Origin: a virus
Strand: one strand, 5' to 3'
Virus record (IMG/VR): IMGVR_UViG_3300012685_000006
Location: 1-47,975 of that record
Length of the DNA stretch: 47,975 nucleotides
Part shown: in pieces, positions 1-40,139 of the stretch
Layout of the letters: every line of letters starts with the position of its first letter
Position numbering within the stretch: the first letter of the stretch is position 1
Made by a program: the position numbers and the translations under genes
The notes under the pieces: generated by a model
What the model was told of the DNA's origin: nothing
Seen by the model: the letters and a program-made list of their open reading frames with translations, nothing else
The model's database searches: none

Positions 1-11
1 CAAACCGGTTC

Positions 12-152
12 ATGGCTTTTCTGACGGGAATAGATGAAGAATGCGAAGAGTGTGAACACCGACTGAAAGCGCACGACCCTAAAACAGGCCAATGCATGAT
101 CCCTGCTTGTGGCTGCATCCGGTCCCTCGCCTCGGGAGCGGAGGAGAAGTAA
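12..152 (+). CDS. Small Cys-rich protein, possibly 5'-truncated
   Basis: A 46-residue frame from ATG to TAA. Cysteines are arranged as CEEC near residue 11 and as a Cys/CGC group near residues 28-35, with a His between them, which suggests a one-zinc ribbon. The frame is also open to the window edge, so the true start may lie upstream; no clear ribosome site precedes the ATG. It ends directly before the next gene, whose ribosome site (GGAGGAG) lies inside its last codons, so the two are probably co-translated. I do not recognise a family. Confidence 0.5.
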   Translation: MAFLTGIDEECEECEHRLKAHDPKTGQCMIPACGCIRSLASGAEEK

Positions 153-284
153 ATGTTCCTAGTCATTCTCTGGATCCTAGCCTGCATCACCTTTATACTC
201 TGGTCCAGGGGTGATTTATCAAAAATCTTTAACTGGCTAGAAAACACAAGCAGCAATCTTCTACACTGGTTAAGGAAACATTAA
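153..284 (+). CDS. Small single-pass membrane protein
   Basis: A 43-residue protein starting immediately after the previous stop, with a strong GGAGGAGAAG ribosome site inside the upstream gene. Residues 2-17 are almost wholly hydrophobic (Phe, Leu, Ile, Val, Trp) and form a likely transmembrane helix. The remainder is polar with a short basic end. It is followed without a gap by another small gene (285). Function unknown; such peptides in phage early regions are often membrane-acting host modulators, but nothing here shows that. Confidence 0.5.
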   Translation: MFLVILWILACITFILWSRGDLSKIFNWLENTSSNLLHWLRKH

Positions 285-425
285 ATGTACGAAACAAACC
301 AAGAAACTGAAGAAACTAGTATCCTCCAGATCCTTTTACATACATACTGGATTCTAGCGAATCTAATAAAACAATCAAAGATTTCCAACCACGACGCAGT
401 TCAGGATGCTACCGCAGGAGAGTGA
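285..425 (+). CDS. Small hypothetical protein
   Basis: A 46-residue protein whose ATG follows the preceding TAA with no spacer, part of a chain of tiny abutting genes. The N-terminal 12 residues are Glu/Thr/Gln-rich; residues 13-28 are hydrophobic and could be an amphipathic or membrane helix. It ends with a GCAGGAGAG stretch that supplies the ribosome site for the 18-codon frame that follows. No family recognised. Confidence 0.45.
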   Translation: MYETNQETEETSILQILLHTYWILANLIKQSKISNHDAVQDATAGE

Positions 426-426
426 A

Positions 427-483
427 ATGCTTAAATGGCTATGTGATAGAATTAAATGGCTGAGGTACTTCTCATGGCAGTGA
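427..483 (+). CDS. 18-residue leader-like peptide
   Basis: A very short frame with a strong ribosome site (CAGGAG, 7 bases before the ATG). It is rich in Trp, Lys and Arg (KW, RIKW, LRY), so it would be amphipathic and cationic. Its stop overlaps the preferred start of the next gene (474), which suggests translational coupling. It could be a leader peptide rather than a functional product. Confidence 0.3.
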   Translation: MLKWLCDRIKWLRYFSWQ

Positions 484-1055
484 ACGGAGAGAGTCATTGC
501 TATGCTTGTGAGGAACAAATAAACATCTCTGTATGCAAGGCGTGTACTAATTTATTCTGTGAAACACACTCCTCGCAACTAGACCGTTCGTTTTGTACAG
601 CATGTATAGATTTTTCTAACACTCGTATAGAATCAAAACCAGTCGTAGATGCCGAAGGCGTATCTCATAAAGTCCGTCAGTTGATACTAACTGGCGAAAC
701 TTGGATGCGTAATCGAGATATAATCGCCAAGATGACTGACGTAGAATTGGAAGCAAAGCTCACGGCTATTACACAGGCTGTTAGAGAAGCGGAGATGATT
801 CTCGATTTCCGTCGTATTGCGAAAACGCAGTTGGAATCTGAGAAAGGAGATCGTTACTCGCGTAAACTAGGAAGGCGTCGCCTTATAGGCGCTATGGATT
901 CCGTCCATAAAAATGCTACTAAGATACCTGGTACAGCCAGTGAGAAAGTCGAGATAGCTAAAGACGCCTTGAAGATGTTAAAAGCATTAGGCCTTAATAA
1001 AGATGCGGTGGCGAATGTCCTCTTAAAACTAGCGCAAGCTAAAGGAAAAACATGA
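474..1055 (+). CDS. Zinc-finger protein with helical tail
   Basis: The open frame begins at ATG 456, but the ATG at 474 has a better ribosome site (GAGG, about 9 bases upstream), so I use it (193 residues). The N-terminal 45 residues carry four Cys pairs/His groups (CYAC, CKAC, CETH, CTAC), resembling a two-zinc B-box or ribbon fold. The rest is charged and helical, with a Lys/Arg-rich stretch near the middle. It overlaps the downstream nuclease gene by 4 bases (ATGA). It may bind nucleic acid or be a partner of the nuclease; this is inference. Confidence 0.6.
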   Translation: MAVNGESHCYACEEQINISVCKACTNLFCETHSSQLDRSFCTACIDFSNTRIESKPVVDAEGVSHKVRQLILTGETWMRNRDIIAKMTDVELEAKLTAITQAVREAEMILDFRRIAKTQLESEKGDRYSRKLGRRRLIGAMDSVHKNATKIPGTASEKVEIAKDALKMLKALGLNKDAVANVLLKLAQAKGKT

Positions 1056-2086
1056 ACGGCGTAACCGAAGCAGCAGATCGAATCAAACCCGGAGAATTCT
1101 ATCGCATCCGCGAAGACGGTAGATGGGAAATCTATCTGGACGCCACGATGGCCGGTACCTTCGGGGTCTGTGAAGAGATGTTTAGAAGCTCCTTCGTAGA
1201 ACGCCTCACTCCCAAAGGAGACCGTCCTTTCGCTCGGGACCTGGGAAGCTGGTGGTCCGACGTAATGGAGCATATCTATACCGCTGATTTCAACTTCAAG
1301 CGTCTCGACTCCAAAGAAATTGTCGATATGTCCATGAAAGTATGGAATGATCTCCAGATGGACGAGCTAGAAAAGTATCATCCACGCAGTTTTAAGGAAT
1401 TTGGTGGTCGATACGGTGCTTTGCAGATGATTGCCGAGTACGCTACGCGACAGCTTCCAATCGACTATCAAACATGGAAGATCGTCGCAGCCGAGGCATC
1501 CTTCGGCAGAAACCGAGAGGTGTGCATTGGAGAAACAGAACGAATTATTCTATACTGGATGGGACAGCCCGATTTATTTGTCGTTTCAGGGGAGAGACTG
1601 TTTCCAGTCGATCATAAATCCATCGCTTATATTGATGGAAACACTTCGAAGAAATACAAACCGCATATACAAATTCCTGGGTATATCGTCGCCGGGCAGA
1701 TTCTCTGTAAGTCTCTTGGCTACGATCTACAGGTGGATCGTGCTGTTATTAATTGTGTGGCGCGTACTGACCGGACAGCTAAAAGCGGAGAGTCTAAGTA
1801 TCCTCGCTTCAAAAGAATATCTGTCACGTATACACCTGCGGAGTTAGATGAGTGGAAGCGACGAAGATTAGCCCAGGCGGAGCGTGTGAGACACTGTTTC
1901 GAATTTAATGAATGGCTCTGGAATGAGAACACATGTTCTAACTTCTACAACAAACCTTGTCCTTTCCAGAATATTCATGAAAAGCCACCTGATGTACGGC
2001 AAGTCGTCATAAACGCTGATTACGTAAAAAGAGATTTCTGGATCCCCGGACGTAGTAAAAATGAAACCGAAGCTAAAGGAGAATAG
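1052..2086 (+). CDS. PD-(D/E)XK nuclease, Cas4/RecB-like exonuclease
   Basis: A 344-residue protein with the catalytic core of the RecB/Cas4 nuclease superfamily: Glu148, Asp174 (QPD), the Asp187-x-Lys189 pair (DHK) and the Gln207-xxx-Tyr211 motif. Cys40 near the N-terminus and Cys282/295/303 near the C-terminus resemble the split cysteine set that holds an Fe-S cluster in Cas4 and AddB, although the spacing is not a perfect match. It lies just upstream of a Sak4-like ATPase and an SSB-like gene. It therefore probably makes 3' single-stranded ends for phage recombination or replication. Start is coupled (ATGA) to the previous gene. Confidence 0.8.
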   Translation: MNGVTEAADRIKPGEFYRIREDGRWEIYLDATMAGTFGVCEEMFRSSFVERLTPKGDRPFARDLGSWWSDVMEHIYTADFNFKRLDSKEIVDMSMKVWNDLQMDELEKYHPRSFKEFGGRYGALQMIAEYATRQLPIDYQTWKIVAAEASFGRNREVCIGETERIILYWMGQPDLFVVSGERLFPVDHKSIAYIDGNTSKKYKPHIQIPGYIVAGQILCKSLGYDLQVDRAVINCVARTDRTAKSGESKYPRFKRISVTYTPAELDEWKRRRLAQAERVRHCFEFNEWLWNENTCSNFYNKPCPFQNIHEKPPDVRQVVINADYVKRDFWIPGRSKNETEAKGE

Positions 2087-2087
2087 T

Positions 2088-2366
2088 ATGCCGAAGAAGT
2101 TAACGAAGTGCGAACATTGTGGCAAGAAATTCAAGAGCATCAAAGGTCACCTTCTTCATTGTAAGGTACTCGCCGAGCAATCGAAAATCAGAAACGAGTA
2201 TCAATCACACAAAACGAACGTTCTGGAACAAGGTCGTACAGAAGGTCTTCAAGAAGCCAAAAGAGAGCAGGCATTTCGTGGCAAGGATGCCATTATTCAA
2301 TTAACCGAATGTATTGCTAAAATGAATCAAGCTCTTGCTCAAGTCGTCGGCGAGTGGAGGTGGTAA
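2088..2366 (+). CDS. C2HC zinc-finger protein with coiled coil
   Basis: Ninety-two residues. The start at 2088 follows AAGGAG by about 8 bases and lies one base after the previous stop; a longer frame from 2061 would overlap the nuclease gene and lacks a good ribosome site. Near the N-terminus it has CEHC followed by HLLHC, a single classical-type zinc finger. The rest is a charged, Gln/Glu/Lys-rich predicted coiled coil. Possibly a DNA-binding accessory of the recombination module on either side. Confidence 0.6.
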   Translation: MPKKLTKCEHCGKKFKSIKGHLLHCKVLAEQSKIRNEYQSHKTNVLEQGRTEGLQEAKREQAFRGKDAIIQLTECIAKMNQALAQVVGEWRW

Positions 2367-3233
2367 TTGATTGACGCGCGGAGCATGGAATCCGAAGTCT
2401 CCACTGACATTCTTCACGTCGCTGTTGTAGGTCCAGAGAATAATGGTAAGTCCATTCTCTGTTCCACAGCCCCAGGCGTGAAGTTGTTTTTGGACTTCGA
2501 TCAAAAGAAACAAGTCTTATCTGGAAGAAAAGATGTCTATGCCATCACCTTCAAGAACGCCCAAGGCGGATACATGCTTCCGGATGCAGCCGAAGAAGTT
2601 CTGGACATAATGACAGGTCTTGAGACTTCGTTAGACTTATACAACCTAAAAGATAAGCGTGGTACACGCCTCTTCCCAGACGTTCCCGAAGGTACTCTCG
2701 TCAAGAATCTTATCTTCGATTCCATGGCCTCCTTTGGACGAGTTATAATGGCATACGAGCTTTATAACTCTAATGACTTAAAAAGAGAAATCAAGATTGG
2801 CCCGAAACTCTCTATTCACATTCCAAAGAATTTCGATGCTTGGAATGCAGAGATGCAAGGGGTAGAATCAATCGTAATGAGAGCTTTTGCTCTACCAGTA
2901 AACGTCTTCTGTACTTTCCACGAACGCGCCGAGGAAACTCCTGACTCCACAATGGAGAAACCGAAGTTCACAGGTCGTGTCTCCGTATTCCCCGTTAGAT
3001 ACAAAGACCTGCTCTTGAAATACTTCACAGATATATGGCGCGTTAAGCTAACCCAAGTAATCGGCAGTAACACCGTTCAGTTCCTCCCTCGCGTCTACGT
3101 CCTTCCAGACTTCTCGATGGACTCTGGTACGTCTATGAAGCTGGATGCGATAGAGGAACCTGATATAACCAAGATGATTACGAAGCATAAATCACGAATT
3201 TCGACCCCCCAAGGGCCGATTATCAAAAAATAA
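2367..3233 (+). CDS. Sak4-like RecA-family ATPase (single-strand annealing)
   Basis: A 288-residue protein with a Walker A loop (residues 22-29, GPENNGKS) and a Walker B-like strand (LIFDS) near residue 115. This is the arrangement of the phage nucleotide-binding Sak4 family, small RecA-fold proteins that promote strand annealing together with a phage SSB. The start is TTG at 2367: GGAGG ends 6 bases before it, and the alternative ATG at 2385 has a poorly spaced site. The nuclease at 1052 and the DUF669/SSB-like gene at 3249 complete a typical phage recombination set. Confidence 0.75.
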   Translation: MIDARSMESEVSTDILHVAVVGPENNGKSILCSTAPGVKLFLDFDQKKQVLSGRKDVYAITFKNAQGGYMLPDAAEEVLDIMTGLETSLDLYNLKDKRGTRLFPDVPEGTLVKNLIFDSMASFGRVIMAYELYNSNDLKREIKIGPKLSIHIPKNFDAWNAEMQGVESIVMRAFALPVNVFCTFHERAEETPDSTMEKPKFTGRVSVFPVRYKDLLLKYFTDIWRVKLTQVIGSNTVQFLPRVYVLPDFSMDSGTSMKLDAIEEPDITKMITKHKSRISTPQGPIIKK

Positions 3234-3248
3234 AAAGGAGACTTACGA

Positions 3249-3710
3249 ATGGCCAAGATTTCATACTCTAAAGAAGACCTCGCAGGTAATGTCTACCCTG
3301 ACGGTCTCTACGAACTCCGCTTGGAAGGATTCGAGCCGGAGAAATCCAAGAAGGGTGATTCGGTGAACTTGAATCCAGTTCTCAAGATCGTGAATCACCA
3401 AACACTCAACAATAAGCGTGTCTTTGACAACCTCAACTCATCCGCTAGTTGGATCGTCGAATCCTTCTGCCACGCCTTCGGTCTTCCGCTAACTCCTAAC
3501 CCAAATGGCGGAGGTGACATGCCCGGGGACTTCGTAGGCCCCGACGGCGAGCCAGATAAATGGCAGTACACTGGTCCTCTAACAGGCGCCATTGCCAAAG
3601 CCTTCGTCAAGAATGCGCCGTATAACGGCAAAGACCAATCCAAAGTCGATCAGTGGTTTTGTCAAGTATCCGGATGCCAGACAAAACATGCTCAGAATCT
3701 AGCTAAGTAG
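3249..3710 (+). CDS. DUF669-like single-stranded DNA-binding protein
   Basis: 153 residues with an AAGGAG ribosome site. The N-terminal half (YPDGLYELRLEGFEP, then KGDSVNL and VFDNL) has the strand pattern of the DUF669 family, OB-fold proteins usually encoded beside Sak4-type annealases and thought to act as their SSB partner. The C-terminal half has a Pro/Gly-rich loop and two Cys. Its position directly after the Sak4-like gene supports the call. Confidence 0.65.
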   Translation: MAKISYSKEDLAGNVYPDGLYELRLEGFEPEKSKKGDSVNLNPVLKIVNHQTLNNKRVFDNLNSSASWIVESFCHAFGLPLTPNPNGGGDMPGDFVGPDGEPDKWQYTGPLTGAIAKAFVKNAPYNGKDQSKVDQWFCQVSGCQTKHAQNLAK

Positions 3711-3718
3711 TTAGATTT

Positions 3719-3739
3719 ACTGTTCATTGAGTGAACACT
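3719..3739. promoter_or_regulatory. Dispersed palindrome, copy 1 of 8
   Basis: ACTGTTC-N7-GAACACT, one mismatch from the consensus AGTGTTC-N7-GAACACT, followed by AAAA. It lies between the SSB-like gene and the ParB-domain gene, 14 bases before the TTG start, and abuts that gene's ribosome site (AAAGGAG). A protein bound here could block translation-proximal DNA or transcription into the ParB-domain gene. Confidence 0.7.
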
Positions 3740-3753
3740 AAAAGGAGAATGAC

Positions 3754-4482
3754 TTGGAGACTGTCGATATTAACGAGGTTCTAATCGAAAATAGAATGAG
3801 AAAGGACCTTGGAGATATTGAGCAGCTCTCCAAGTCAATATCCGAAAACGGCTTAATACAGCCGATAGTGTTGACTTCATTTCAGGAAAACGATTTAACA
3901 ATCATTAAGCTGGTCGCCGGACATCGTAGGTACGAAGCTCTGAAGAAACTTGGCATAGCTACTTTAGTACATGCCGAGCACTTCCTCTGGAGAGACGATC
4001 TCGCTACGGACGAGTACCGTAGAAACGCCGTCGAGCTTGAAGAGAATCTTCGTCGTAAACAAATGAACTGGTCAGAGGAGGTCCTCGGTAAGCAGCGCCT
4101 CCTCGAAGTTTATCAGCGCATATACGGCGCTCCTATCCCCGGCCAACCCTCTAGAACAGTGCAACAAGGCCTAAAACCTGCTGGCTTTGGTGTCCGAAAA
4201 CTCTCTGAGCTACTAAACGAAGCCGTTGGTTCTACAAGTCAAGACTTACAGATGGCGGCGTTAATAGAGAAGATTCCGTCTCTAAAGAATGAACCGTCTA
4301 GAGAGGCCGCTCGTAGAAAATTAGAACTGGCGCTTAAAATACAAGCCGGAACGCACAGCGTTCATATGGCTAAGCCATTGGCTTATAAGATTCTCGTCGA
4401 GTGTGAATCGGAAGCCCAACAGATTGTTTTACTAACACAATTTAGATCGGCGGGACTAAAATGTCAAGCAATAGTAGCATAA
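3754..4482 (+). CDS. ParB/KorB-like DNA-binding protein
   Basis: 242 residues from a TTG start (AAAGGAGAA 7 bases upstream). Residues 3-100 form a ParB N-terminal domain: the LIENRMRK..D...L..SI..NGLIQPI pattern, then VAGHRRYEALKKLG with GHRR at 56-59 in place of the usual GERR nucleotide-binding motif. Residues about 105-200 look like the helix-turn-helix part, ending in a charged tail. There is no ParA gene in the window. Phage ParB-domain proteins can be CTP-switch clamps, nucleases or KorB-type regulators. The palindrome just upstream, repeated seven more times, makes a site-specific regulator or clamp loader attractive. Confidence 0.75.
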   Translation: METVDINEVLIENRMRKDLGDIEQLSKSISENGLIQPIVLTSFQENDLTIIKLVAGHRRYEALKKLGIATLVHAEHFLWRDDLATDEYRRNAVELEENLRRKQMNWSEEVLGKQRLLEVYQRIYGAPIPGQPSRTVQQGLKPAGFGVRKLSELLNEAVGSTSQDLQMAALIEKIPSLKNEPSREAARRKLELALKIQAGTHSVHMAKPLAYKILVECESEAQQIVLLTQFRSAGLKCQAIVA

Positions 4483-4775
4483 CCGAAACACAACAGACAG
4501 TTTCTCAATGGGCAGAGCAGACTTTTGGCTCAGTTGGCTCTAACGCCAGCGTAGCTGCTAGAGTTAATAAGGAGATGGCTGAGCTTATAATGGAGCTTGC
4601 TAGAGACGATAACTCTCCCAAAATGGGAGATGAAATAGCTGACGTAGTAATCTGTCTAATGAGACTAGCCGATAGAAACGGTATTGATATGCTCGAAGAG
4701 GTGGACAGAAAGATGAAGATAAATCGTTCGAGAGAGTGGGTTTTAGATGGTCACGGTCACGGTCAACACAAATGA
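4461..4775 (+). CDS. MazG-like nucleotide pyrophosphohydrolase
   Basis: 104 residues overlapping the ParB-domain gene by 22 bases. It has the all-alpha NTP-PPase metal motif: Glu38-xx-Glu41 in one helix and Glu58-xx-Asp61 (GDEIADV) in the next, then a helix ending near REW. MazG-like enzymes hydrolyse (d)NTPs or alarmones such as ppGpp; phages use them to tune nucleotide pools or host stress signals. The C-terminus is His/Gly-rich. Its stop overlaps the next start (ATGA). Confidence 0.75.
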   Translation: MSSNSSITETQQTVSQWAEQTFGSVGSNASVAARVNKEMAELIMELARDDNSPKMGDEIADVVICLMRLADRNGIDMLEEVDRKMKINRSREWVLDGHGHGQHK

Positions 4776-6229
4776 AAATCAACATCCACCGCGAAGTCGA
4801 AATCGAATCTACGATCCGGACCGAGCTTTTAAGCTCCATGTTTGAGGTACCTGCCAAAACCAAACTAAGCGTTTCGCTTACAGGAGATATTCCTAATTCC
4901 CCTCATTATAACATAGGGCTAATAGTCGGACCGTCAGGAAGTGGGAAGACTCTTCTTCTAAACGAGATTTTCGGAGAGCCTCGTAGATTTTATTGGAATT
5001 CTAAATCCGTAATAGACGATTTTGATACTAGACTCTCGATGGAAGAAATTACACGTGTGTGTCAATCCGTTGGGTTTAACACCGTTCCCTCATGGATGCG
5101 TCCGTATAGTGTCCTCTCAAACGGGGAGCGTTTTAGAGTGGAAGTAGCTCGTCATCTTGTATCTGATTCACTCAACGAAAACTGCCTTAGCGATGTTATT
5201 CGTATCGACGAATTTACCTCTGTTGTAGATCGTCAAGTGGCACAATTCGCCTGTCACTCTATTCAGAAGTACGTTAGAGAGAATAATAAACATCTTGTCG
5301 TAGCCTCCTGCCACTACGACATTATCCCCTGGCTCCAGCCAGATTGGATTCTAGAGCCCGGAAATCCGTGTCGCTTTACCTGGAGGTCTCTTCAATCAAG
5401 ACCACCAATTACATGTCAAGTATCTAGATGCAAATACGAGACTTGGCAGTTATTCAAAGACTTTCACTATATGAGCGCTGATCTAAATCGCGCTGCGAGG
5501 TGTTATGGGCTCTTCGTTGAATCCCCACAACTGGACGGTAGACTGGCAGCAGAATATAATGACGAACACATTCGTTCATATTCCGACGGGCGTGGAAGTA
5601 ACACAGGAAATGATTCTAGACTACGGCTTCCCCGATCCTCAGTATTGTCGCAGCGCGATAGCGATTCGTCAGTGGTACTTCGCCAAGATGACGAATGCGA
5701 GGATAGCAGGGACGCTCAGGCCGCATTCGCAGGTGACGAATCTACCGGGGACTCAGCATTCATCTTTTCAAAATCAGCAGCGATTCATGAATCACTATCT
5801 AACCAGCAAATTAGCGTGGTACCTGTATCCAGATGCTCCGACCCAACCTATCGAATTGCTTCTATGTGTGGAGTCCTTCATCGTCCGCATCCCAAAGTAT
5901 CAGATATTTGTGGATTCACTCGAATGGTTACACTGCCGGACTTCCAAGGACTCGGTTTGGCTTTCGTGCTCGCTTGTAAAGTCGCCAGTGCCTATAAGGC
6001 TCTGGGAAAAAGACTTCATTCTTATCCAAATCACCCCGCCTGGATCCGATCCTATCAGCGAAGTAGCCTGTGGATGCAAGTTAAAGATAGTGGGTCCTAT
6101 AGTCCCAGGCGAGGTTCCACAAGTACGGTGGGAGGATTTGGCAATAAGAGATGTGCCGTTTTTCAGTATATCGGAGATGCGATGAATCGAGAAGAGGCGG
6201 AAAGGCTTATAAATGTCGATAAGGCTTAG
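4772..6229 (+). CDS. ABC-type ATPase fused to GNAT-like domain, with large insert
   Basis: 485 residues from ATG 4772, coupled to the preceding stop. Residues 1-205 are an ABC ATPase: Walker A GPSGSGKT (53-60), signature LSNGE (115-119), Walker B IRIDE (143-147) and a His switch near 181. Residues 215-470 match a GNAT-like domain that accompanies such ATPases: FHYMSADLNRAARC, GVLHRPHPK, VTLPDFQGLG, and HPAWIRSYQRSSLW. Between Glu250 and Tyr359 sits an insert of about 108 residues, very rich in Ser, Asp and Arg, absent from the family as I know it. The same DNA reads as a more protein-like sequence in another frame (see 5505). Role unknown. Confidence 0.7.
   Translation: MKINIHREVEIESTIRTELLSSMFEVPAKTKLSVSLTGDIPNSPHYNIGLIVGPSGSGKTLLLNEIFGEPRRFYWNSKSVIDDFDTRLSMEEITRVCQSVGFNTVPSWMRPYSVLSNGERFRVEVARHLVSDSLNENCLSDVIRIDEFTSVVDRQVAQFACHSIQKYVRENNKHLVVASCHYDIIPWLQPDWILEPGNPCRFTWRSLQSRPPITCQVSRCKYETWQLFKDFHYMSADLNRAARCYGLFVESPQLDGRLAAEYNDEHIRSYSDGRGSNTGNDSRLRLPRSSVLSQRDSDSSVVLRQDDECEDSRDAQAAFAGDESTGDSAFIFSKSAAIHESLSNQQISVVPVSRCSDPTYRIASMCGVLHRPHPKVSDICGFTRMVTLPDFQGLGLAFVLACKVASAYKALGKRLHSYPNHPAWIRSYQRSSLWMQVKDSGSYSPRRGSTSTVGGFGNKRCAVFQYIGDAMNREEAERLINVDKA
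5505..6185 (+). other. Long overlapping frame inside the ABC-ATPase/GNAT gene
   Basis: A 226-codon frame wholly inside the gene at 4772, shifted to another frame. It has its own ATG and a GAGG site 4 bases before it. Its first 110 or so residues look like an ordinary folded protein (balanced hydrophobics, Trp, Tyr, IPTGVEV, ILDYGFPDP), whereas the host gene's frame over 5522-5845 is low-complexity. After about 5846 the host frame carries conserved GNAT motifs, so the second half of this frame is probably a shadow. It may be a nested gene, or an insertion read out of frame. Confidence 0.4.
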
Positions 6230-6413
6230 TAGTGCCCAAGTAACTAGAATTAGAGAAGCTCTCGACCTTCATCTAAAAATAGGTTGGTTAGAAGACAAAA
6301 CAAGGCATTGGAATATCGAAGATTTAGTAGAAGACATCCTAAAGGAGGTAGTCCCCGAATGCAACCCAAGCGAGCACCTAATACAGAAAGAGCAGCGGAG
6401 TGTCAGCATTTAG
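6213..6413 (+). CDS. Small hypothetical protein
   Basis: 66 residues, starting inside the end of the previous gene (17-base overlap) and overlapping the next gene by 55 bases. The sequence is helical and charged, with Trp residues at 25 and 33. No motif recognised. A purine-rich AAAGG stretch about 7 bases upstream could serve as ribosome site. Confidence 0.5.
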   Translation: MSIRLSSAQVTRIREALDLHLKIGWLEDKTRHWNIEDLVEDILKEVVPECNPSEHLIQKEQRSVSI

Positions 6414-6568
6414 TAGAAGAAATCCGTGACTTCCTCGAAGAATTAAATCCTACGGAGCAGAAATTTATCTCCGATATGGACGAACGCCTCACGAAGTGGG
6501 GCCAAGGTACCTTCATCTCCGATGATCAGTATAAATGGATACAGGATATTTATGAACGGGTGTGCTGA
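6359..6568 (+). CDS. Small hypothetical helical protein
   Basis: 69 residues. I choose ATG 6359 over the open-frame start at 6284 because AAAGGAGGT, a near-perfect ribosome site, precedes it by about 8 bases and lies within the end of the previous gene. The product is acidic and helical (LVEEIRDFLEELNP) and ends YKWIQDIYERVC. No family recognised. Its end overlaps the start of the UDG/exonuclease gene. Confidence 0.55.
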   Translation: MQPKRAPNTERAAECQHLVEEIRDFLEELNPTEQKFISDMDERLTKWGQGTFISDDQYKWIQDIYERVC

Positions 6569-7718
6569 TATTGCGCTGAGACAGGCGCTTGCGCTGAAAG
6601 GACTTCGATATGTCGGAACCAGAGGAAATACTCGCTCATCTGTTTGTATTCTTGGAGAGGCACCTGGCGAGCGGGAGGATCTCAAAGGATTGCCTTTCAT
6701 TGGCCCTTCCGGTTATCTTCTCGACAACATGCTTAAAGAGGCCGGTTTTTCGGCTACGGAGTGCTGGTTCACCAACCCATATAAAACTCGACCCCCCGAT
6801 AACAAAATGGATCGGTTACACGAACTCGGTATTGACCATAAGGTTTTTCTCGATCAATTCTGGGAAGAACTCGAACAATACAAGCCAACAATAATCGTCT
6901 CTTGCGGCAAGACACCGACTCAACTACTATGTCCTTTTACAAAACCAAAGCGAATAATCAAGAAGCAGAACGAAAAGAAAGACGGTTTTGGACACTGGCG
7001 TGGTTCTCTTCTGACAAGCCCGTTTCTAAATCATCCGCATTATATTATTCCCATGTATCATCCAGCTTTCGTTTTACGTCAGTACTCGGAGCGTGAAATA
7101 TGTATCTTTATCTTAACAAGAGCATACGAAGAGTGGAAGTATTTTGCACGTCACGGGCGCTTGGAGTCATTACCATCCCGGACGATAATTACCAGTCCTT
7201 CCTTTCAAGATGCTTCTGGTTTCCTCACGCGCTGTATCAATTCACCAGATCCTATTTCGATAGATATAGAGTTACTGCGTCGGAAAGTCCCATACACCAT
7301 CTCGTTTGCTCCTTCAGAGAGGGAAGCGGTGTCAATTTCCTTCTGGAATTACCCCGTGAAGGAACTAATCATTCTATGGAGAAAAATGGATGAAATCTTC
7401 CGAACAAAGCAACAAATCGGCCAGAACTACACTACTTTTGATGCTCACTGGCTTCGTGCTCTCGGTTTTTCTGTCAATCTTAGTTTGGTACATGATACTC
7501 TCATACGCCACCACATACTGTGGCCGGGTCTGCGCCACAAACTTGAATTTCAAACAATGCAGTACACACGCGAGCCCTATTACAAAGAAGAAGGCCACAG
7601 TTGGAGTCCACGGGACGGAATAGACAAGTTAATGAAATATAACTGCAAGGACACCTTGGTAACTTATGAAATCTTTCTAAAACAGCAGGAGGAGTTTCAA
7701 GAACGTGCCGCCGCTTAA
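6552..7718 (+). CDS. UDG4-like domain + 3'-5' exonuclease (N-terminal half of split SPO1-type DNA polymerase)
   Basis: 388 residues from ATG 6552 (AGGAT just upstream); an earlier in-frame ATG at 6522 is possible. Residues 25-200 match family-4 uracil-DNA glycosylase: GEAPG (35-39), PFIGPSG, TNPYKTRPP and YHPAFVLR. The cysteines that bind the Fe-S cluster in true UDG4 enzymes are replaced (KTRPP instead of KCRPP), so it is probably structural or a degenerate glycosylase. Residues 235-380 hold the proofreading motifs: Exo I Asp238-x-Glu240, Exo II Asn292...Asp297, and Exo III Tyr363-xxx-Asp367. SPO1-type phage polymerases have this order followed by a PolA domain, here encoded separately at 8423. 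Confidence 0.8.
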   Translation: MNGCADIALRQALALKGLRYVGTRGNTRSSVCILGEAPGEREDLKGLPFIGPSGYLLDNMLKEAGFSATECWFTNPYKTRPPDNKMDRLHELGIDHKVFLDQFWEELEQYKPTIIVSCGKTPTQLLCPFTKPKRIIKKQNEKKDGFGHWRGSLLTSPFLNHPHYIIPMYHPAFVLRQYSEREICIFILTRAYEEWKYFARHGRLESLPSRTIITSPSFQDASGFLTRCINSPDPISIDIELLRRKVPYTISFAPSEREAVSISFWNYPVKELIILWRKMDEIFRTKQQIGQNYTTFDAHWLRALGFSVNLSLVHDTLIRHHILWPGLRHKLEFQTMQYTREPYYKEEGHSWSPRDGIDKLMKYNCKDTLVTYEIFLKQQEEFQERAAA

Positions 7719-8139
7719 CACATTAGAAAATGTACTTTCATATGTTAAGAAACTAGAAAACGGCTGCTGGGAATGGACAGGTGCCAGAGATAAACACGGA
7801 TATGGGGCTCTTAGTTACAAAGGAGAATCCTGGCGCGCTCATGTACTTATATACACTCTTATCAAAGGGCCTGTCCCGTTTGGGAAAATACTACATCATA
7901 GATGTGAATTCAAGAGTTGTGTAAACCCTGAGCATCAAGGGCCATTATCCCATGGAGCACATAGACTAATTCACACAATGAATAGAACTTATTGTGCGAG
8001 AAATCACGAACTTACCTTCGCAAACACTTACATTACACCTGAGGGAAGAAGAACATGCTTAACTTGCCGTCGAGAGAATCTAAAACTGCACAGAAAAAGG
8101 AAAGCGCAAACGAAAAGCCGCCGCTTGAGACAGTCCTGA
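7705..8139 (+). CDS. HNH homing endonuclease in polymerase locus
   Basis: 144 residues from a GTG start overlapping the exonuclease gene by 14 bases; GGAGGAG lies about 11 bases upstream. The sequence GCWEWTGARDKHGYG...AHVLIY...HHRCEFKSCVNPEH is the HNH_3-type core (His-His, Asn-Pro-x-His). The C-terminal C..NH...N...C..C module is a zinc finger common to these enzymes. It sits exactly at the exonuclease/polymerase domain junction, in a gene family (SPO1 polymerase) known to be invaded by HNH-bearing introns. Here it is free-standing. Confidence 0.85.
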   Translation: MPPLNTLENVLSYVKKLENGCWEWTGARDKHGYGALSYKGESWRAHVLIYTLIKGPVPFGKILHHRCEFKSCVNPEHQGPLSHGAHRLIHTMNRTYCARNHELTFANTYITPEGRRTCLTCRRENLKLHRKRKAQTKSRRLRQS

Positions 8140-8423
8140 AATTCGAGACCGGTCTAACACGCGCTTTAATGAGCGGCACGAAGCGAGTTACTATCCGCTT
8201 AGGAAAGCGTAGCTTTGCTCAACATATAACTATCTACGGAAAGAAAGCCGAGGTCCAATCCGTCGTCCATACGCAGCTTTTATATACGCCTTTCGAAGTT
8301 CTCCAACTACAAGGATTCAAACATATGTTTCATGCTTTAATTTCATTACAGAAGTATTATCCAGGAATAACGCAGACATCGCAGATTACGATAGTTACGT
8401 TCCGAATACTCGATACACTTTAA
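8055..8423 (+). CDS. ASCH/PUA-like domain protein
   Basis: 122 residues. The core KFETGLTRALMSGTKRVTIRLGKRSF resembles the start of ASCH domains (strand, IlsGxKxxTiR), a PUA-related fold that binds RNA or modified nucleotides. The N-terminal 25 residues overlap the HNH gene and are basic and disordered. A GAGGGAAGAA site precedes ATG 8055. Its stop shares TAATG with the polymerase start, so polymerase translation is probably coupled to it. It may have arrived with the HNH gene, or be a translation-linked regulator; inference. Confidence 0.55.
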   Translation: MLNLPSRESKTAQKKESANEKPPLETVLKFETGLTRALMSGTKRVTIRLGKRSFAQHITIYGKKAEVQSVVHTQLLYTPFEVLQLQGFKHMFHALISLQKYYPGITQTSQITIVTFRILDTL

Positions 8424-9901
8424 TGCCTTTATTCAACAGTCTCGAACAGTTTTATAACTGTTATGAAATGCCCCTTGCTCGCGTGTTTCACGAGATAGAT
8501 CGAAGAGGAGTCTTAGTTGACCAAAAAAGACTTAAAAAATTCATTGAAGGCATCGACGTTGACCTTACAACGGCGTGTCAGAAGATTGAGTCCGTTGTCA
8601 AGCTCAAAGTCATTCCAAAAGGAATCAAAGGAAAGAAAACCGATGCTGATACACTTAACCTCTCCAGCGTACCTTCTCTTAAAAGAGCACTTACAGAAGT
8701 ACTTGGGATCAAACTAAAAAAAGACTGGAAAACCAAAAATGAATCCACCGGAGAAGAAGCCCTTAACGAAGCCTACGTTTCCACAGGAAACCCAGTTCTC
8801 AAAGAAATACTCCGAGTTCGTGAGCTTAATAAAATCAAAGGAACCTACGCCGAAGCAACTCTACTCGATTCTGTTTTATACACTTCGTATGCGGTCACTG
8901 GCACTGTTACTGGCAGACGATCCTCTAGGGAAACTCCGTTTACGTCTGAAACAGGTCATGCTATCGGAACAAACGTTCAGAATCTACCTAAACAAAGCGA
9001 ACTTGGAAAGAAGTTTAGAGAATGTATCATTGCAAGACCTGGAAAGATTTTTGTTAGCTGCGATCAGGTCCAAGCTGAAGATTGGATCGTGTGTGCTATC
9101 ATTCACGACGTATCGAGAGACGATAGCGGCCTTTCCGAACTCCGAAGAGGGGTTGATAGACATCGAAGACTAGCTATGCAAATTTTCAATAAAAGCGAAG
9201 CTGAATGTGGAAAAGGCACGATGTTTCGTTTTATGGGCAAGAAAACACGACATGCGGGGAATTACGGAATGCAGGCTCCGAAGATGGCCGTCGAGCTTGC
9301 GAAAGAAGGATTCTCACTAGGAGTTAAATACTGCGAAACTCTATTGGAGCGCTTCCATGCATTCGAACCTGAGATTAGAAATTCATTCCAAAAATCTGTC
9401 GAAGATAGTATTAGAACTAAACGAACCCTCCGTACTCCCGTTGGAAGGGAGCGCTACTTCTTTGGTCTCCGACCTGACGCTGATAATAGTAAAATATTTA
9501 AGGAAGCATTCTCTTATATCCCCCAGTCAACAGTTGGAGATAACACAGGACTCGCCGTCTTACACTGTGAGCGTGTTCGACCCGGATGGGTTATCATGGA
9601 CACACACGACGCGATTACCCTCGAATTGGATGACCGAGAAGATGAGATCCTCGCTGGATTAGAACTCTTAAGAAACGCCTTTGATAGAGAATTTACTTTT
9701 CCAAATGGCACGAAAATCAAGATTCCGATAGAATACACCTTGGGCTATGATCTTAAAAACGAAATGGAGATTAACCCCGCACAGTGTCACGGAGACTTAG
9801 CAACTGGATTGCGCAATACCTATCCTATGTTGGTCCAGCTTCGGAATCTCCCATTTCCTATATCTTCTGGTCCGCTGCAACAGCAATTAGTACAGTCTTG
9901 A
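8423..9901 (+). CDS. Family A DNA polymerase, polymerase domain (C-terminal half of split enzyme)
   Basis: 492 residues. Residues 10-35 (EMPLARVFHEIDRRGVLVD) match the usual entry to the PolA palm. TGRRSS (163-168) and NVQNLP precede motif A, Cys213-Asp214...Glu219. Motif B is a phage variant, KKTRHAGNYG (273-282), and motif C is DTHDAITLE (His395-Asp396). The enzyme lacks its own exonuclease, supplied by the gene at 6552. The last 39 or so residues overlap the next gene in another frame and look unlike polymerase. The native end was probably near residue 453. Confidence 0.9.
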   Translation: MPLFNSLEQFYNCYEMPLARVFHEIDRRGVLVDQKRLKKFIEGIDVDLTTACQKIESVVKLKVIPKGIKGKKTDADTLNLSSVPSLKRALTEVLGIKLKKDWKTKNESTGEEALNEAYVSTGNPVLKEILRVRELNKIKGTYAEATLLDSVLYTSYAVTGTVTGRRSSRETPFTSETGHAIGTNVQNLPKQSELGKKFRECIIARPGKIFVSCDQVQAEDWIVCAIIHDVSRDDSGLSELRRGVDRHRRLAMQIFNKSEAECGKGTMFRFMGKKTRHAGNYGMQAPKMAVELAKEGFSLGVKYCETLLERFHAFEPEIRNSFQKSVEDSIRTKRTLRTPVGRERYFFGLRPDADNSKIFKEAFSYIPQSTVGDNTGLAVLHCERVRPGWVIMDTHDAITLELDDREDEILAGLELLRNAFDREFTFPNGTKIKIPIEYTLGYDLKNEMEINPAQCHGDLATGLRNTYPMLVQLRNLPFPISSGPLQQQLVQS

Positions 9902-11004
9902 AGCGGAATGTATACGTAGGTCGTGGGACATATAAGTTACATCCGAATCTCTACACAGTCTTGGTCGGTAGACCAGGTATCGGAAAAGGAACAGCGATTA
10001 AACCGGCGATTAATCTAATGAAAGAAGCGAAGGTAGCGAACACGCTATCAGGTAGAATAACTATAGAATATGTTCTAGAACGCCTCTCCGTCGGATGGCC
10101 ACAGCCTATGTTAGGCGGTACTCTTAAAATCGGTAATGAATCGGCATGTATGATTTTCTCAACCGAACTTTCAGTATTCTTGGGCGCAAGTCCCAATACT
10201 CTTCCTATTCTCTGCGACATCTGGGACTTCGACGAGGGAGATTTCGAATATGGTACTCGACATAAAGGTGAATTTAGAATTAAAAATCCCACAATCTCCC
10301 TTCTTGGCGGGACTACTCAAGAGTGGCTCATCTCATCAATCCCTTCCTCTGCCGTTGGCGGAGGTTTCACTCGGAGAGTTAATTTCGTGGTTGCAAACAA
10401 TCGAGAAAAACTGCTCCCCTGGCCAGTCGTTCAAAATCACTCTACGATCAGAGATAATCTCCTTCTCGATCTCCAGTCCATCGCTAGGCTAAAGGGAGAG
10501 TTTCAATTCGCCAATGACGTAAAACCCCTCTTCGAAGCGTGTTATTCCATTGACTCAAATCCTACGGAATACGACGACGAGGCGACGACCTCGTATAAAA
10601 CGAGTTTATGGGCCCAAGTGGTGAAACTAGCAATGTGTATGTCGGCTTCTCGCGCTGATGATTTAATTATAACAAAGGAGGACTTTCGTAAATCTTATGA
10701 CGCAATCATGTCAGTAGCAGGTAACGTACCGAAAGTCTTTAGAGGCGTCGGGGAATCGGAGATGGCTATAGCTACGGATAAAATACTTCGATTCCTAGAG
10801 AATAAGGGCTTTGCCAATCGACAAGAAATTCTTAAAGCTCTTTGGAGAGACGTGACTAGAGAAGATTTAGATAAGATTCTCGCTACGCTTCTCGAAGGCG
10901 CAGTTATTTATGAATATCAACAAGGCAGAAGTACAATGTTTGCAGTAAAGGCCACGCACGCAGTAGGAACTCAAACTCGAAAAGTGAAGGGAGTTACACC
11001 TTGA
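9784..11004 (+). CDS. DUF3987-like P-loop ATPase, probable replication helicase
   Basis: 406 residues from GTG 9784, overlapping the polymerase gene by 118 bases. The opening (NWIAQYLSYVG..SE.PISYIFWSAATAIS) and the Walker A loop GRPGIGKGT (62-70) are typical of DUF3987-type phage ATPases. A strand MIFSTELS near 118 would be Walker B with Glu. A winged-helix-like segment (ANRQEILKALW...EDLDKILATLLEGAVI) ends the protein. It is placed with DNA polymerase as in many phages where this family replaces a DnaB-type helicase; the exact role is inferred. Confidence 0.7.
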   Translation: MSRRLSNWIAQYLSYVGPASESPISYIFWSAATAISTVLKRNVYVGRGTYKLHPNLYTVLVGRPGIGKGTAIKPAINLMKEAKVANTLSGRITIEYVLERLSVGWPQPMLGGTLKIGNESACMIFSTELSVFLGASPNTLPILCDIWDFDEGDFEYGTRHKGEFRIKNPTISLLGGTTQEWLISSIPSSAVGGGFTRRVNFVVANNREKLLPWPVVQNHSTIRDNLLLDLQSIARLKGEFQFANDVKPLFEACYSIDSNPTEYDDEATTSYKTSLWAQVVKLAMCMSASRADDLIITKEDFRKSYDAIMSVAGNVPKVFRGVGESEMAIATDKILRFLENKGFANRQEILKALWRDVTREDLDKILATLLEGAVIYEYQQGRSTMFAVKATHAVGTQTRKVKGVTP

Positions 11005-11315
11005 GCACAGCCGTAAAGGAACAAAAAGGCTTCTACATCATCCCTGCGCCAGGCAGAATATGGCTCGTAGAGGATGGCTTCAAATATGAAGGGCGTATTG
11101 TCATACCTGACAAAGTGCAGCGACGCCCGACCACTGGAGTCGTGAGGTGGGTTGGAGAAGGAGTAAACTACGTAGAAGGACAAAGACTAGTTTACGGACT
11201 TTATTCTGGAACTGTAGTTAATTTCAAGAATCAACCAGTTTATAGAGTTTGCAATCCGGATGAGATTCTAGGAATTGTCGAAGGGGAAGCGGAGTTGGAA
11301 GGAGTGGGGACGTGA
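11001..11315 (+). CDS. GroES-like co-chaperonin
   Basis: 104 residues from TTG 11001 (AAGGGAG 6-7 bases upstream), overlapping the previous stop. It follows the GroES strand order: PAPGRIWLVED, then EGRIVIPD (GGIilPd equivalent), TTGVVRWVGEG, VEGQRLVYG, TVVNFKNQPVYRV, and NPDEILGIVEG (dDILavle equivalent). Phage GroES homologues such as T4 gp31 redirect GroEL to fold the major capsid protein. The mobile loop (around KYEG) is short. The capsid protein of this phage is encoded far away on the other strand. Confidence 0.7.
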   Translation: MSTAVKEQKGFYIIPAPGRIWLVEDGFKYEGRIVIPDKVQRRPTTGVVRWVGEGVNYVEGQRLVYGLYSGTVVNFKNQPVYRVCNPDEILGIVEGEAELEGVGT

Positions 11316-11410
11316 TGCCAGAAGAAATCGAAGATAATGAAGACATTCTTCAAGAAGATGATCCAAGCGAAGAAGACGACATAACAGAAATGGAGGAAGA
11401 GGATGACTAA
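11315..11410 (+). CDS. 31-residue highly acidic peptide
   Basis: ATG 11315 overlaps the previous stop (TGATG), and GGAGTGGGG lies just upstream. Nineteen of the 31 residues are Asp or Glu and none is basic. Its 3' end overlaps the next gene's start and supplies that gene's ribosome site (GGAGGAAGAGG). Very acidic small phage proteins can be DNA mimics, but the size and lack of structure allow only speculation. Confidence 0.45.
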   Translation: MPEEIEDNEDILQEDDPSEEDDITEMEEEDD

Positions 11411-11738
11411 TGTCCTTGACGAAGAAAAAAGCAGCAGCAAATGCCGTGACTGTATGAACCACATTCTTAGACTCGGCGACTGGGTAGACATTCTTCCTCC
11501 CCAGAACATAAAATGGATTGGTAAAATCGTGGAGATTAATGACGGTGGGATAAGTCTCTCGATTGACAAGAATAATAGAGGAATGACACCTGCAAAAGTT
11601 CGTGTCGTTCTTGATATTACTATGAACGCCAATCCTCAACTAGCTGTCTTTCCAGGATTAACGAAAACACTTCCTCCTGGAAGCGATGATATGATTGATA
11701 AAGTAATGGAGGAGGCTGAAAAACCTCCTGTACAATGA
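11403..11738 (+). CDS. Hypothetical protein with Cys pair
   Basis: 111 residues. CRDCMNH near residue 14 could bind a metal. Residues 25-75 (LGDWVDILPP..IKWIGKIVEINDGGISLSID) have the alternating pattern of a small beta barrel such as an SH3- or KOW-like domain, followed by a Pro-rich tail. It sits between the acidic peptide and an HNH gene with overlaps on both sides. Function unknown. Confidence 0.55.
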   Translation: MTNVLDEEKSSSKCRDCMNHILRLGDWVDILPPQNIKWIGKIVEINDGGISLSIDKNNRGMTPAKVRVVLDITMNANPQLAVFPGLTKTLPPGSDDMIDKVMEEAEKPPVQ

Positions 11739-12172
11739 CAAAATGTAGAATTTGCAAACTAGACAGATCGTTAGACGAGTTCCCTGACTGGCAACTCAAA
11801 AACTACAGAAATCCAGCCTGTAAGGATTGTTTGAGTAAAAGAGGAAGTAAACGATGTCTTAATTGTAAAATTATCGTTATAAAACATTACAGTAACGGTA
11901 CTATGAAATGTAATTGTTGTGGTGAGAGTAGAGTTGAGTTTCTTTCAACAGATCATATCGACGGTCTTAAGAAAAACGAAATAAGAATTAGCGGAAGAGC
12001 TTTCTATGTAAGACTAATACATGAACATTTCCCTCCCGGATACCAGATACTTTGTTTTAATTGTAATCTATCCAAAGGATTTTTCGGATATTGCCCGCAT
12101 GAAAAGGAGCGAATGAAAGAGGAGATTCCTTTAACTAAAGAACCTCCTCCATCCGGACCAATTACGATGTGA
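11735..12172 (+). CDS. HNH endonuclease with zinc ribbons
   Basis: 145 residues. The N-terminus has paired Cys sets (CRIC, CKDC, CLNC). The core CNCCGESRVEFLSTDHIDG ... FPPGYQILCFNCNLSKG ... CPH is the DHI-type HNH nuclease with structural zinc cysteines, widespread in phages as free-standing homing endonucleases. It overlaps the previous gene by ATGA and is the last gene of the rightward early module. Its stop lies 2 bases from the stop of the facing late gene. Confidence 0.8.
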   Translation: MTKCRICKLDRSLDEFPDWQLKNYRNPACKDCLSKRGSKRCLNCKIIVIKHYSNGTMKCNCCGESRVEFLSTDHIDGLKKNEIRISGRAFYVRLIHEHFPPGYQILCFNCNLSKGFFGYCPHEKERMKEEIPLTKEPPPSGPITM

Positions 12173-12174
12173 GA

Positions 12175-12435
12175 CTATACATCTTTGCTAGACGCTGCCT
12201 TTTTACCAGCAGCGATATTCCGGGAGAGACCGGAGCCTTTCTTGCCGAATCCACTTTCAGAATTCGAAAGATGACCCTTAGTGCCAGAGGCATGCTTCGG
12301 ACCGTGAGCTTTCGCTCGCGGGTTATCGGCAGAGCCGCTGTAAAGATGCGACCCAGGGGAATTAGCCGAAGGACTGCATTCTAGACTATCTTCGACGGCT
12401 TTTACTTCTTTATGACTCATTGGTGAAGTTGGCAT
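12175..12435 (-). CDS. Small basic Gly/Ser-rich late protein
   Basis: 86 residues from the ATG at 12435, chosen because AAGGAG precedes it; the longer frame to 12507 would cross the palindrome and overlap the ejection-type gene. The product is Ser, Gly, Lys and His-rich, low in hydrophobics, probably disordered. It is the last gene of the leftward late module and has palindrome copy 2 about 20 bases upstream. Function unknown; perhaps a virion-associated minor protein. Confidence 0.5.
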   Translation of the reverse strand: MPTSPMSHKEVKAVEDSLECSPSANSPGSHLYSGSADNPRAKAHGPKHASGTKGHLSNSESGFGKKGSGLSRNIAAGKKAASSKDV

Positions 12436-12456
12436 ATATGCTCCTTGATTAGATTT

Positions 12457-12477
12457 AGTGTTCAGAAAATGAACACT
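12457..12477. promoter_or_regulatory. Dispersed palindrome, copy 2 of 8
   Basis: A perfect AGTGTTC-N7-GAACACT match. The outer TAG on the minus strand doubles as the stop codon of the gene ending at 12476. The site lies in the short gap before the gene starting at 12435. Confidence 0.75.
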
Positions 12478-14371
12478 ATTTGTACTGACCGATCGTGTCA
12501 GTAACAAACTCTGTCATAGCTCCACGCTCTAGAAATCCTTTTTTACGAGGAGACTTACGTGTTGATTCCTTCAGTTTATACGCTGAAATCGGGCCGACAA
12601 CGGGTATGCGTCGCAGCATTTCCAGTCCTATCGGCTGTTTCGTATGTGGCAAGCGAGCGAGATCAACGAAGTCGGAAATCACGGGTCCAGCCACGAAGTG
12701 CCAAATCGGCGCATCGCTCGGAGATGCAACGTTGTAAATCATGTCTTGAAAAATTCCAAAAGCTCCTGCGTGAGCCGCGTTATCAATTAGTCTCTCTAAA
12801 GGATATTCAGGCCGCTCTTCGAGCGTTCCCTTCCGGGCATACTCACGTAAATCCGCGGTCAATTCCCCGAAAGTGGGAAATAGCATTGACATATACACTA
12901 GCGGGCGTATATCTCCGTCAGCTCCAGCAGTCTGAAGATATTTCACCGCGGGTTTGACGGCAAAGTTCTTGACGAAATTGGCTTGCGTGTAAAAATACTG
13001 CTTAAACTGTAGTACCAATCGAGCCATCGGACTCGCCTTCCACGCGAGCGGTAGTTGATTAGCATCGAATGTGAATTGAGTAACATCGGAGGTGCGCTTT
13101 GCGGCTTGTAGTAAATCGTCTTCGGATAGATTGCCACGTTCTAGAGCCTTCGCTACATCGAGACCTAATTGACCCAGCTTTGATCGAGCGACATTTGGCC
13201 GGACACCTCGCTGTATTTCTGAAAACAAGTCTTCTGCAAGATGCTTACCCGCTACGGCTGCGAATATACGCCGATATTTATCAAGGGCAACAAATCCTGT
13301 CGCGTGAAGAATCTTGGAGCCTAGAGCGCCCGTTTGCTGCCCATAAAGCTCTTTATATCTGCGCATTGATTCTGTCCACGTCGCTCCGCTCCGCAGGGCA
13401 AAGTCTTCTGCACTCCGCACGTTCCCGTTTTCTACAAATTCTGAAACTAGCGAAGCTAAAGCCTTAGCAAATGGCTTAACGCCAGCATAAACGGCGACGT
13501 TAAGAGGCTGACTCGTATGCGACAAAACAGCAAGGCTTAACTTACTAGCTACTTCTAGACTCGCTAAGCCTTGCTCCCAAGGGCGAATACCCCTATAATA
13601 CTTGCCCGTTTTTGTTATGCTATCGACATACTTAAGAGCCAAATCCTGGGCAGACTTGCCTCCAGTTTCTTTAACTCCTTTGAGTATAAGATCAAGATTC
13701 TCGTCATTCGCTCCGAAGATTTTCGCCCAGTTTAATCTTTTATATCCTTTATCAACGTCCTCAAAGAGAACACCCAAATCTCGGCGATATCCTGGCAGAT
13801 CCCATTTACGAGGAGTCTCGTAGTTATGAGCGCGGGGGGATTTTCCGGAAATCTGGTCCAGGAGTCCCTCAGCTTGTCTAAGGGACATACCTTGACGCTG
13901 TAGTTTACCGATAGCTTGCTCACGGTTGACTCCTTCGAAGAGTTCTCGTGGGTACATACGCGGCCAGTCGTCTTCGACCATCGGGCCGACTTTGATTCCA
14001 GATTGCTGCATACTCGAATAAATATGTAAGCGAGCCAGCTTTGCTTTAGTGATTGATTCCTTCAACGGCCCATCAGGAAGATTCTTGAAATTCTGCCAGT
14101 GTGTAGCTATATCTCCTGTAATACTCTTATCCTTTAGAATAGGTTTCATACTTCGTAGAAGCGTAGAATAATAATCACCGGAGTTTCTAGCAGAGTTATC
14201 CTGCCATGACTTCATCGAATCTACGAGCATATCTCCGAACGGACCTGCTCTCCTCAAAGCGCCTTCTCCGGACATAACCGCAGTAGTCGAAAGCTCGTTA
14301 TTGAAAATCTTAGGGAGAAATTCCTTTACTCCCTTCCCTAAAGTCGAAACTGCTTCGCCTAGCCAGCTCAT
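12476..14371 (-). CDS. Large internal virion / ejection-type protein
   Basis: 631 residues from ATG 14371, which overlaps the previous stop (ATGA); an upstream ATG at 14401 is also in frame. It has long helical stretches, a hydrophobic central region (SKLSLAVLSHTSQPLNVAVYAGVKPFAKALA), and a segment QFKQYFYTQANFVKNFAVKP typical of large phage internal-protein C-termini. Length, composition and position next to two other long low-complexity late proteins suggest one of three ejection proteins that form the DNA-entry channel of short-tailed phages. No catalytic motif is visible. Confidence 0.55.
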   Translation of the reverse strand: MSWLGEAVSTLGKGVKEFLPKIFNNELSTTAVMSGEGALRRAGPFGDMLVDSMKSWQDNSARNSGDYYSTLLRSMKPILKDKSITGDIATHWQNFKNLPDGPLKESITKAKLARLHIYSSMQQSGIKVGPMVEDDWPRMYPRELFEGVNREQAIGKLQRQGMSLRQAEGLLDQISGKSPRAHNYETPRKWDLPGYRRDLGVLFEDVDKGYKRLNWAKIFGANDENLDLILKGVKETGGKSAQDLALKYVDSITKTGKYYRGIRPWEQGLASLEVASKLSLAVLSHTSQPLNVAVYAGVKPFAKALASLVSEFVENGNVRSAEDFALRSGATWTESMRRYKELYGQQTGALGSKILHATGFVALDKYRRIFAAVAGKHLAEDLFSEIQRGVRPNVARSKLGQLGLDVAKALERGNLSEDDLLQAAKRTSDVTQFTFDANQLPLAWKASPMARLVLQFKQYFYTQANFVKNFAVKPAVKYLQTAGADGDIRPLVYMSMLFPTFGELTADLREYARKGTLEERPEYPLERLIDNAAHAGAFGIFQDMIYNVASPSDAPIWHFVAGPVISDFVDLARLPHTKQPIGLEMLRRIPVVGPISAYKLKESTRKSPRKKGFLERGAMTEFVTDTIGQYK

Positions 14372-26809: not shown

Positions 26810-26830
26810 GATGTTCATCTCCTGAACACT
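26810..26830. promoter_or_regulatory. Dispersed palindrome, copy 4 of 8
   Basis: GATGTTC-N7-GAACACT. It lies in the 25-base gap between the HNH gene (26829) and the tail gene starting at 26803; on the minus strand its outer TAG is the HNH stop codon. The 7-base spacer reads AGGAGAT on the minus strand, a ribosome-site-like sequence, so occupancy or hairpin formation could affect the downstream gene. Confidence 0.7.
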
Positions 26831-39462: not shown

Positions 39463-39483
39463 TCTGTTCACAGAGTGAACACT
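39463..39483. promoter_or_regulatory. Dispersed palindrome, copy 5 of 8
   Basis: TCTGTTC-N7-GAACACT, in the gap between the terS stop and the start of the gene at 39448. The half GAACACTAA is perfect. Confidence 0.7.
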
Positions 39484-40110: not shown

Positions 40111-40139
40111 ATACTAGCACATCGCGTAGCGATTGTCAA
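40111..40139 (-). promoter_or_regulatory. Sigma70-type late promoter with operator in spacer
   Basis: Reading leftward, TTGACA (40139-40134), 17 bases, then TAGTAT (40116-40111) preceded by TGC. The spacer contains ATCGCTACGCGAT, an inverted repeat of 5+5 bases around TAC, fit for a regulator. It would drive terS and the late genes. A CCCTT/AAGGG pair covers the terS ribosome site downstream. Confidence 0.65.

Follow-up and report, generated by a model that had tools for sequence, protein, structure and literature searches.

An orphan ParB-family protein and a dispersed set of palindromes that vary together point to a probable virus-wide gene switch

The stretch of DNA analyzed in this work (the window) is a single IMG/VR virus record of 47,975 bases. 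At positions 3754-4482 (+) it carries a gene with a TTG start for an orphan ParB-family protein of 242 aa, which consists of a domain of the ParB_N/CTP-binding type, an HTH at approximately residues 147-176 and a short C-terminal part. The ORF matches PF02195 (ParB_N) above the cut-off with 35.4 bits, is also matched by PHROG and NCBIfam models for ParB/Noc, and is the one PF02195 gene in the record. A structural model of the protein was built with AlphaFold2 on 16 sequences (mean pLDDT 82, the C-terminal dimerisation part being poorly modelled) and compared with known structures using Foldseek and VIA-align. The model matches ParB, Noc, Spo0J and KorB over the N-domain and HTH, with the alignments to Noc, ParB and KorB extending to about residue 195-209 at Z 10.5-11.7; these include Noc 7nfu (Z 11.4, 164 residues, rmsd 3.5) and KorB 8qa9 (Z 10.5, 172 residues, rmsd 4.8). 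The ParB DBD-parS complex 6s6h was matched over 74 residues within 99-198 (Z 5.4, rmsd 3.1). With both a ParB_N domain and a downstream HTH, the protein is a member of the ParB/Noc superfamily, in the broad sense only. Searches of the record, which is possibly incomplete, with the ParA-type families PF13614 and PF01656 gave no match, and 14 of 14 control genomes were positive; classical partition is thus unlikely, as a preliminary description of this DNA had reasoned.

The nucleotide-binding boxes of the protein read GHRR (P-motif) and EENLRR, and align with GERR and EENIRR of relatives, such that the P-motif arginines and the Asn of ENxRR are kept and the motif glutamate is replaced by His. 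GHRR is found in the window and in relatives G001, G009 and G014, GERR in G013, G016, G021 and G022, and GGRR in G032 and G035. The earlier suggestion that GHRR hints at altered nucleotide use was not supported: the four genomes with GERR have the same kind of network, and KorB, with the P-motif GARRYR, hydrolyses CTP at a rate comparable to Noc (PMC11790492), so the GHRR box alone says little on nucleotide use.

Directly upstream of this gene lies a 21-bp palindrome (site 1, 3719-3739, +) of sequence ACTGTTCA-TTGAG-TGAACACT, followed by the parB ribosome-binding site AAAAGGAG and separated from the TTG at 3754 by exactly 14 bases (3740-3753), which agrees with the placement and the single ParB-domain gene given in the preliminary description. 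Site 1 is imperfect, its left half ACTGTTCA giving one C-C mismatch, and belongs to an eight-copy dispersed set of the form AGTGTTCA-N5-TGAACACT. Site 2 (12457-12477, -) has perfect arms and lies 21 bp before the start at 12435 of a small minus-strand gene; site 3 (22235-22255, -) falls within the signal-peptide codons of a gene starting at 22303; and sites 4 (26810-26830, -) and 5 (39463-39483, -) lie 6 bp and 14 bp before ATG codons at 26803 and 39448, respectively. Site 6 (40241-40261, -) is placed 101 bp upstream of the -35 of a predicted sigma-70 promoter (TTGACA-N17-TAGTAT, 40111-40139, -) that reads towards a small-terminase-like gene (39486-40091, -), assigned by alignment and position and located between sites 5 and 6. 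Site 7 (43087-43107, +), again with perfect arms, comes 4 bp before the -35 of a second predicted sigma-70 promoter (TTGACA-N18-TACACT, 43112-43141, +), and site 8 (45456-45476, +) has at its centre the conserved ATG of an FtsK/SpoIIIE-like gene (45444-46637, +).

Matches to AGTGTTCA-N5-TGAACACT with up to two mismatches on both strands numbered 19, versus a shuffle mean of 3.84 (largest 10), and the top de novo motif of the window, AGTGTTC-N7-GAACACT, occurs in 8 copies versus at most 5 in shuffles. Four of the eight sites (1, 2, 4 and 5) fall in the 30 bp that precede a start codon (P = 0.0017); this zone, with start-codon overlap included, covers 7.5% of the genome. For several sites, which are intercistronic, no promoter is evident alongside. 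Two other descriptions were rejected: site 2 is not a convergent terminator, as a minus-strand gene starts 21 bp downstream in a layout common to relatives, and the sites have no fixed genomic polarity, the stronger half being on the + strand in the window and site 6 being flipped in relatives.

Other genes were seen in the window. Between 6522 and 9901 a DNA polymerase is present in pieces, comprising a uracil-DNA-glycosylase and 3'-5' exonuclease ORF (6522-7718), an HNH endonuclease (7705-8139), an ASCH-like ORF (8055-8423) and a polymerase A ORF (8423-9901). A Cpn10-like co-chaperonin gene is found at 11001-11315, and a small protein encoded at 43989-44474 has a C-terminal J-domain-like stretch (HPD motif) and is kept across the family. 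A VWA-like protein directly precedes the FtsK-like one (44741-46637), a pair that is kept family-wide, ParB-minus relatives included. A megablast search of positions 1-12500 against named phages gave no match, nor did Rfam and tRNA scans of the window.

Searching with ParB, terminase, FtsK and an AAA protein as queries revealed a family of syntenic relatives. In this bacterial virus and its uncultured relatives the near-identical palindromes number 6 to 10, most of them shortly ahead of genes, in versions that differ by lineage (TGTTCA, TGTTTA, TGTCAA, TGTTAA and others) and have a common TGT-N11-ACA geometry. G001, with a ParB 97% identical to that of the window, has the same motif; G009 (68%) and G014 (78%) have AGTGTTTA-N5-TAAACACT; G013 (53%) has AATGTCAA-N5-TTGACATT; and G016 and G022 (51-54%) have looser motifs, e.g. 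AAGTGTYA / CGAACACTT and AGTATT / AATACT. The spacer is five in all of these. The copies in relatives have orthologous positions, most of them at start codons or a short way ahead: the position of site 2, before the 12435 gene, is filled in 7 of 7 genomes checked, that of site 4, before the 26803 gene, in 10 of 10 examined, and that of site 5, before 39448, in most. A site precedes parB in the window, G001, G009, G013 and G021, with a hairpin between site and gene in G009 and a hairpin plus an extra ORF in G013; no palindrome is present before parB in G016, and none is clearly seen in G022.

Specificity residues of ParB/Noc proteins lie in and near the recognition helix (PMC7383237). Within each motif class the corresponding residues are constant, reading TSQDLQ with TGTTCA, TSQDLE with TGTTTA and TSNDLD with TGTCAA; the helix is TSKD(I/V)E in the TGTTAA class and TSKDLE in G035. 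The TSQDLE of the TGTTTA class also occurs in G021 and G022, whose own motifs are less distinct. This covariation, which is confounded with ancestry, is consistent with ParB as the protein that would bind the palindromes.

Two further clades were recruited via the major capsid protein. In a sister clade (capsid identity 72-73%), ParB is joined to an N6/N4 DNA methylase, with PF01555 and PF02195 in one protein; across the sister clades such fusions occur in G027, G028, G029, G030, G032, G035, G036 and G039 (for example L305:1414-2787). Genomes of the 72-73% clade have the palindrome ACTGTTAAC-NNN-GTTAACAGT, in which the TGT-N11-ACA geometry is retained, and G035 has a palindrome of its own (CTACTAAC / GTTAGTAG). 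A copy of the clade motif lies inside the parB-methylase gene itself in G027, G028, G029 and, with one half degenerate, G036, the gene of G035 holds a copy of that genome's own motif, and none was found inside the gene in G030, G032 or G039; G032 (67%) has ParB and only two candidate sites. The half site GTTAAC, being palindromic in its own right, is also a possible target of methylation. In the other clade (62% capsid identity), G033 and G034 (50-52 kb) have neither ParB nor such palindromes. Every testable genome with palindromes has ParB; in G031, which has sites, ParB is missing only because the gap between the contig ends coincides with the parB region. The co-loss of ParB and palindromes, the negative side of this phyletic comparison, rests on two related genomes, and a census of TGT-N11-ACA that required fixed flanking pairs proved too stringent to tell the genomes well apart.

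The same association was seen in an unrelated phage, Desulfofustis phage LS06-2018-MD01 (L345, OP947158.1), which encodes a 430-aa protein of the ParB-methylase type, 31% identical to the window ParB, and carries ten TATGTCC-N7-GGACATA (TATGTCCC-N5-GGGACATA) sites of the same geometry (at 246, 2248, 7685, 13424, 15471, 23056, 29967, 37110, 41278 and 42974), most of them a short distance ahead of annotated genes and five of them 16-33 bp before annotated starts. ParB is the only window protein that has a homologue in this phage yet is missing from G033 and G034. Dispersed N5 palindromes were not found in the ParB-methylase phages Mel-JY34 (L347) and VS-ABTNL-3 (L349), so the link between ParB and palindromes is not universal, and in the high-GC Gordonia phages Kiko and Wizard the palindrome count was swamped by GC-rich words and hence unreadable. 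Vibrio phage VS-ABTNL-3 (MF497422.1) has a different dispersed element, seven GAATTAT-ATAATTC palindromes without spacer. The ParB-like gene of Gordonia phage Kiko (L348, MK284521.1, 35302-38151) almost adjoins an FtsK-like translocase, and both functions also occur in the window. Aphanizomenon phage Yong-DA (L346, ON073792.1), which encodes ParA and ParB, has dispersed TGTTCAGACGTCTGAACA sites (3726, 15524, 19737, 31875, 38137 and 42293), one of them inside parB; these look as expected of parS, and the gene content looks plasmid-like. A scan of bacterial genomes returned only distant ParB N-domains, so no host can be named.

Joint presence, joint absence and joint change of ParB and the palindromes suggest a gene switch that operates virus-wide. 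The preliminary description had proposed a KorB-like autoregulated network, and this is the best-supported reading, given that ParB and palindromes co-occur and are lost together, that motif and protein diverge together, that sites keep orthologous positions and that an independent phage has the same layout; the parB-proximal site, part of that proposal, proved common and not universal. We consider it probable that the orphan ParB is an autoregulating protein acting at dispersed operators, KorB-like in layout, and infer that it binds them directly. On this proposal a ParB dimer would contact, via its HTHs, the two half sites of each of the eight palindromes, of the form nnTGTnnn-N5-nnnACAnn. 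With one palindrome ahead of parB, the protein would regulate its own gene along with other operons, predicted targets being the terminase operon, the FtsK-like gene and structural genes. Protein bound close to promoters, ribosome-binding sites and 5' gene ends would mainly repress or time transcription, and a CTP-dependent clamp state like that of KorB, Noc and ParB could extend control to distant promoters.

Of the rival explanations, the one that survives best assigns the palindromes, as operators, to a different protein of phage or host origin, with parB merely one of its targets. Most window proteins are without annotation, and the small terminase between sites 5 and 6 has a probable HTH, which leaves room for another binder. 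Among conserved window proteins, however, only ParB fits the palindrome distribution, being absent from G033 and G034 and present in the Desulfofustis phage, and motif divergence among close relatives speaks against one fixed host protein; we regard this explanation as unlikely. Two specific candidates were rejected, the small terminase since it is found in G034, which has no sites, and the protein encoded at 40467-41051, considered as a ribbon-helix-helix binder, since no homologue of it was detected in the TGTTAA clade, where sites are present.

Somewhat less probable again is a parS-like set serving condensation, plasmid-like segregation or packaging with the FtsK-like translocase, and not regulation. 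The half sites do resemble parS (TGTTTC), an FtsK-like gene is present, and the copy inside parB-methylase genes is like the palindrome copy in the parB of ParA-encoding Yong-DA. The absence of ParA from the window nevertheless speaks against such a set, and the concentration of sites at gene starts, with positions kept across relatives, would be unneeded for condensation or packaging.

Pairing within the arms bears on the remaining alternative. When 48 sites were oriented by the gene downstream, pairing failed at 87 of the 384 arm positions, with 69 non-wobble and 18 G-U mismatches, and the G-U share of these mismatches is about that expected by chance (1 in 6), so stems are not kept by wobble pairing; this pattern favours a DNA dyad over an RNA stem, judged from the sequences. 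RNA hairpins in mRNA leaders controlling translation, processing or termination are accordingly a very improbable account: many sites adjoin or include a start codon or ribosome-binding site, stems of 8 bp with loops of 5 nt are possible, and another hairpin follows the site in G009 and G013, but within a genome it is the sequence that is conserved and not just the pairing, site 7 lies upstream of a promoter and would be untranscribed from it, and no Rfam family matched.

Phage genomes very often encode ParB-like proteins, and the usual label for these is partition protein or nuclease. A ParA-less ParB with predicted genome-wide operators, lineage-specific motifs and matching helices provides a concrete alternative to these labels, and opens a large class of phage proteins to direct tests of function. 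The motif classes TGTTCA, TGTTTA, TGTCAA and TGTTAA constitute a natural experiment on the evolution of ParB DNA specificity, and the methylase-fused clade ties DNA modification to the same network. Autoregulation by the orphan ParB can also be extended, much more tentatively, to a CTP-switched sliding-clamp regulon in tailed phages, in which ParB would load at the TGT-N11-ACA operators and terminase, FtsK-like, structural and parB operons might be timed from a distance; the sister clade, with this module joined to a methyltransferase, suggests that the regulator may in addition mark or modify the operators it uses.

Among known systems, KorB of plasmid RK2 resembles the window protein in its ParB-family fold with N-domain and HTH, in a P-motif without glutamate, and in having many dispersed operators, predicted ones in the window, some a few bp and some approximately 100 bp from a -35, with its own operon among the targets. 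Operators of KorB are placed either 4-10 bp or 45 bp to >1 kb away from the promoters they control, and the spacing of site 7 (4 bp) and site 6 (101 bp) from strong -35 elements is within these placements; the OB operator is a 16-bp element (PMC11790492). Unlike OB, the window sites (AGTGTTCA-N5-TGAACACT) are at least 21 bp and of other sequence, there is no ParA/IncC partner in the window, the genome is that of a phage, and the sites are often at or over ribosome-binding sites. No KorA-like HTH regulator was found among the window proteins scanned, where many small ORFs are without assignment. The window protein was not filed as KorB because of the mismatch in operator sequence and ParA partner. 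Noc and chromosomal ParB (Spo0J) are its best sequence and structure matches, the half sites of parS, like those of the window, begin TGT, and specificity is set in the recognition-helix region, as is predicted for the window protein. Unlike the 16-bp parS/NBS, the window sites are at least 21 bp with a 5-bp spacer, stand at gene starts genome-wide and are accompanied by no ParA; unlike ParABS, no parA lies beside parB, and the sites differ from consensus parS TGTTTCACGTGAAACA in sequence and spacing. Phage ParB-methyltransferase fusions, such as WBK39746.1 of Desulfofustis phage LS06-2018-MD01, share the ParB and HTH module, and that phage has palindromes of the same geometry, whereas the window protein is without a methyltransferase domain. 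The stoperators of mycobacteriophage repressors are likewise many dispersed repressor sites in one phage genome and are short and asymmetric. Unlike stoperators, which are bound by an unrelated repressor, the window sites are palindromes at gene starts, and their candidate binder is a ParB.
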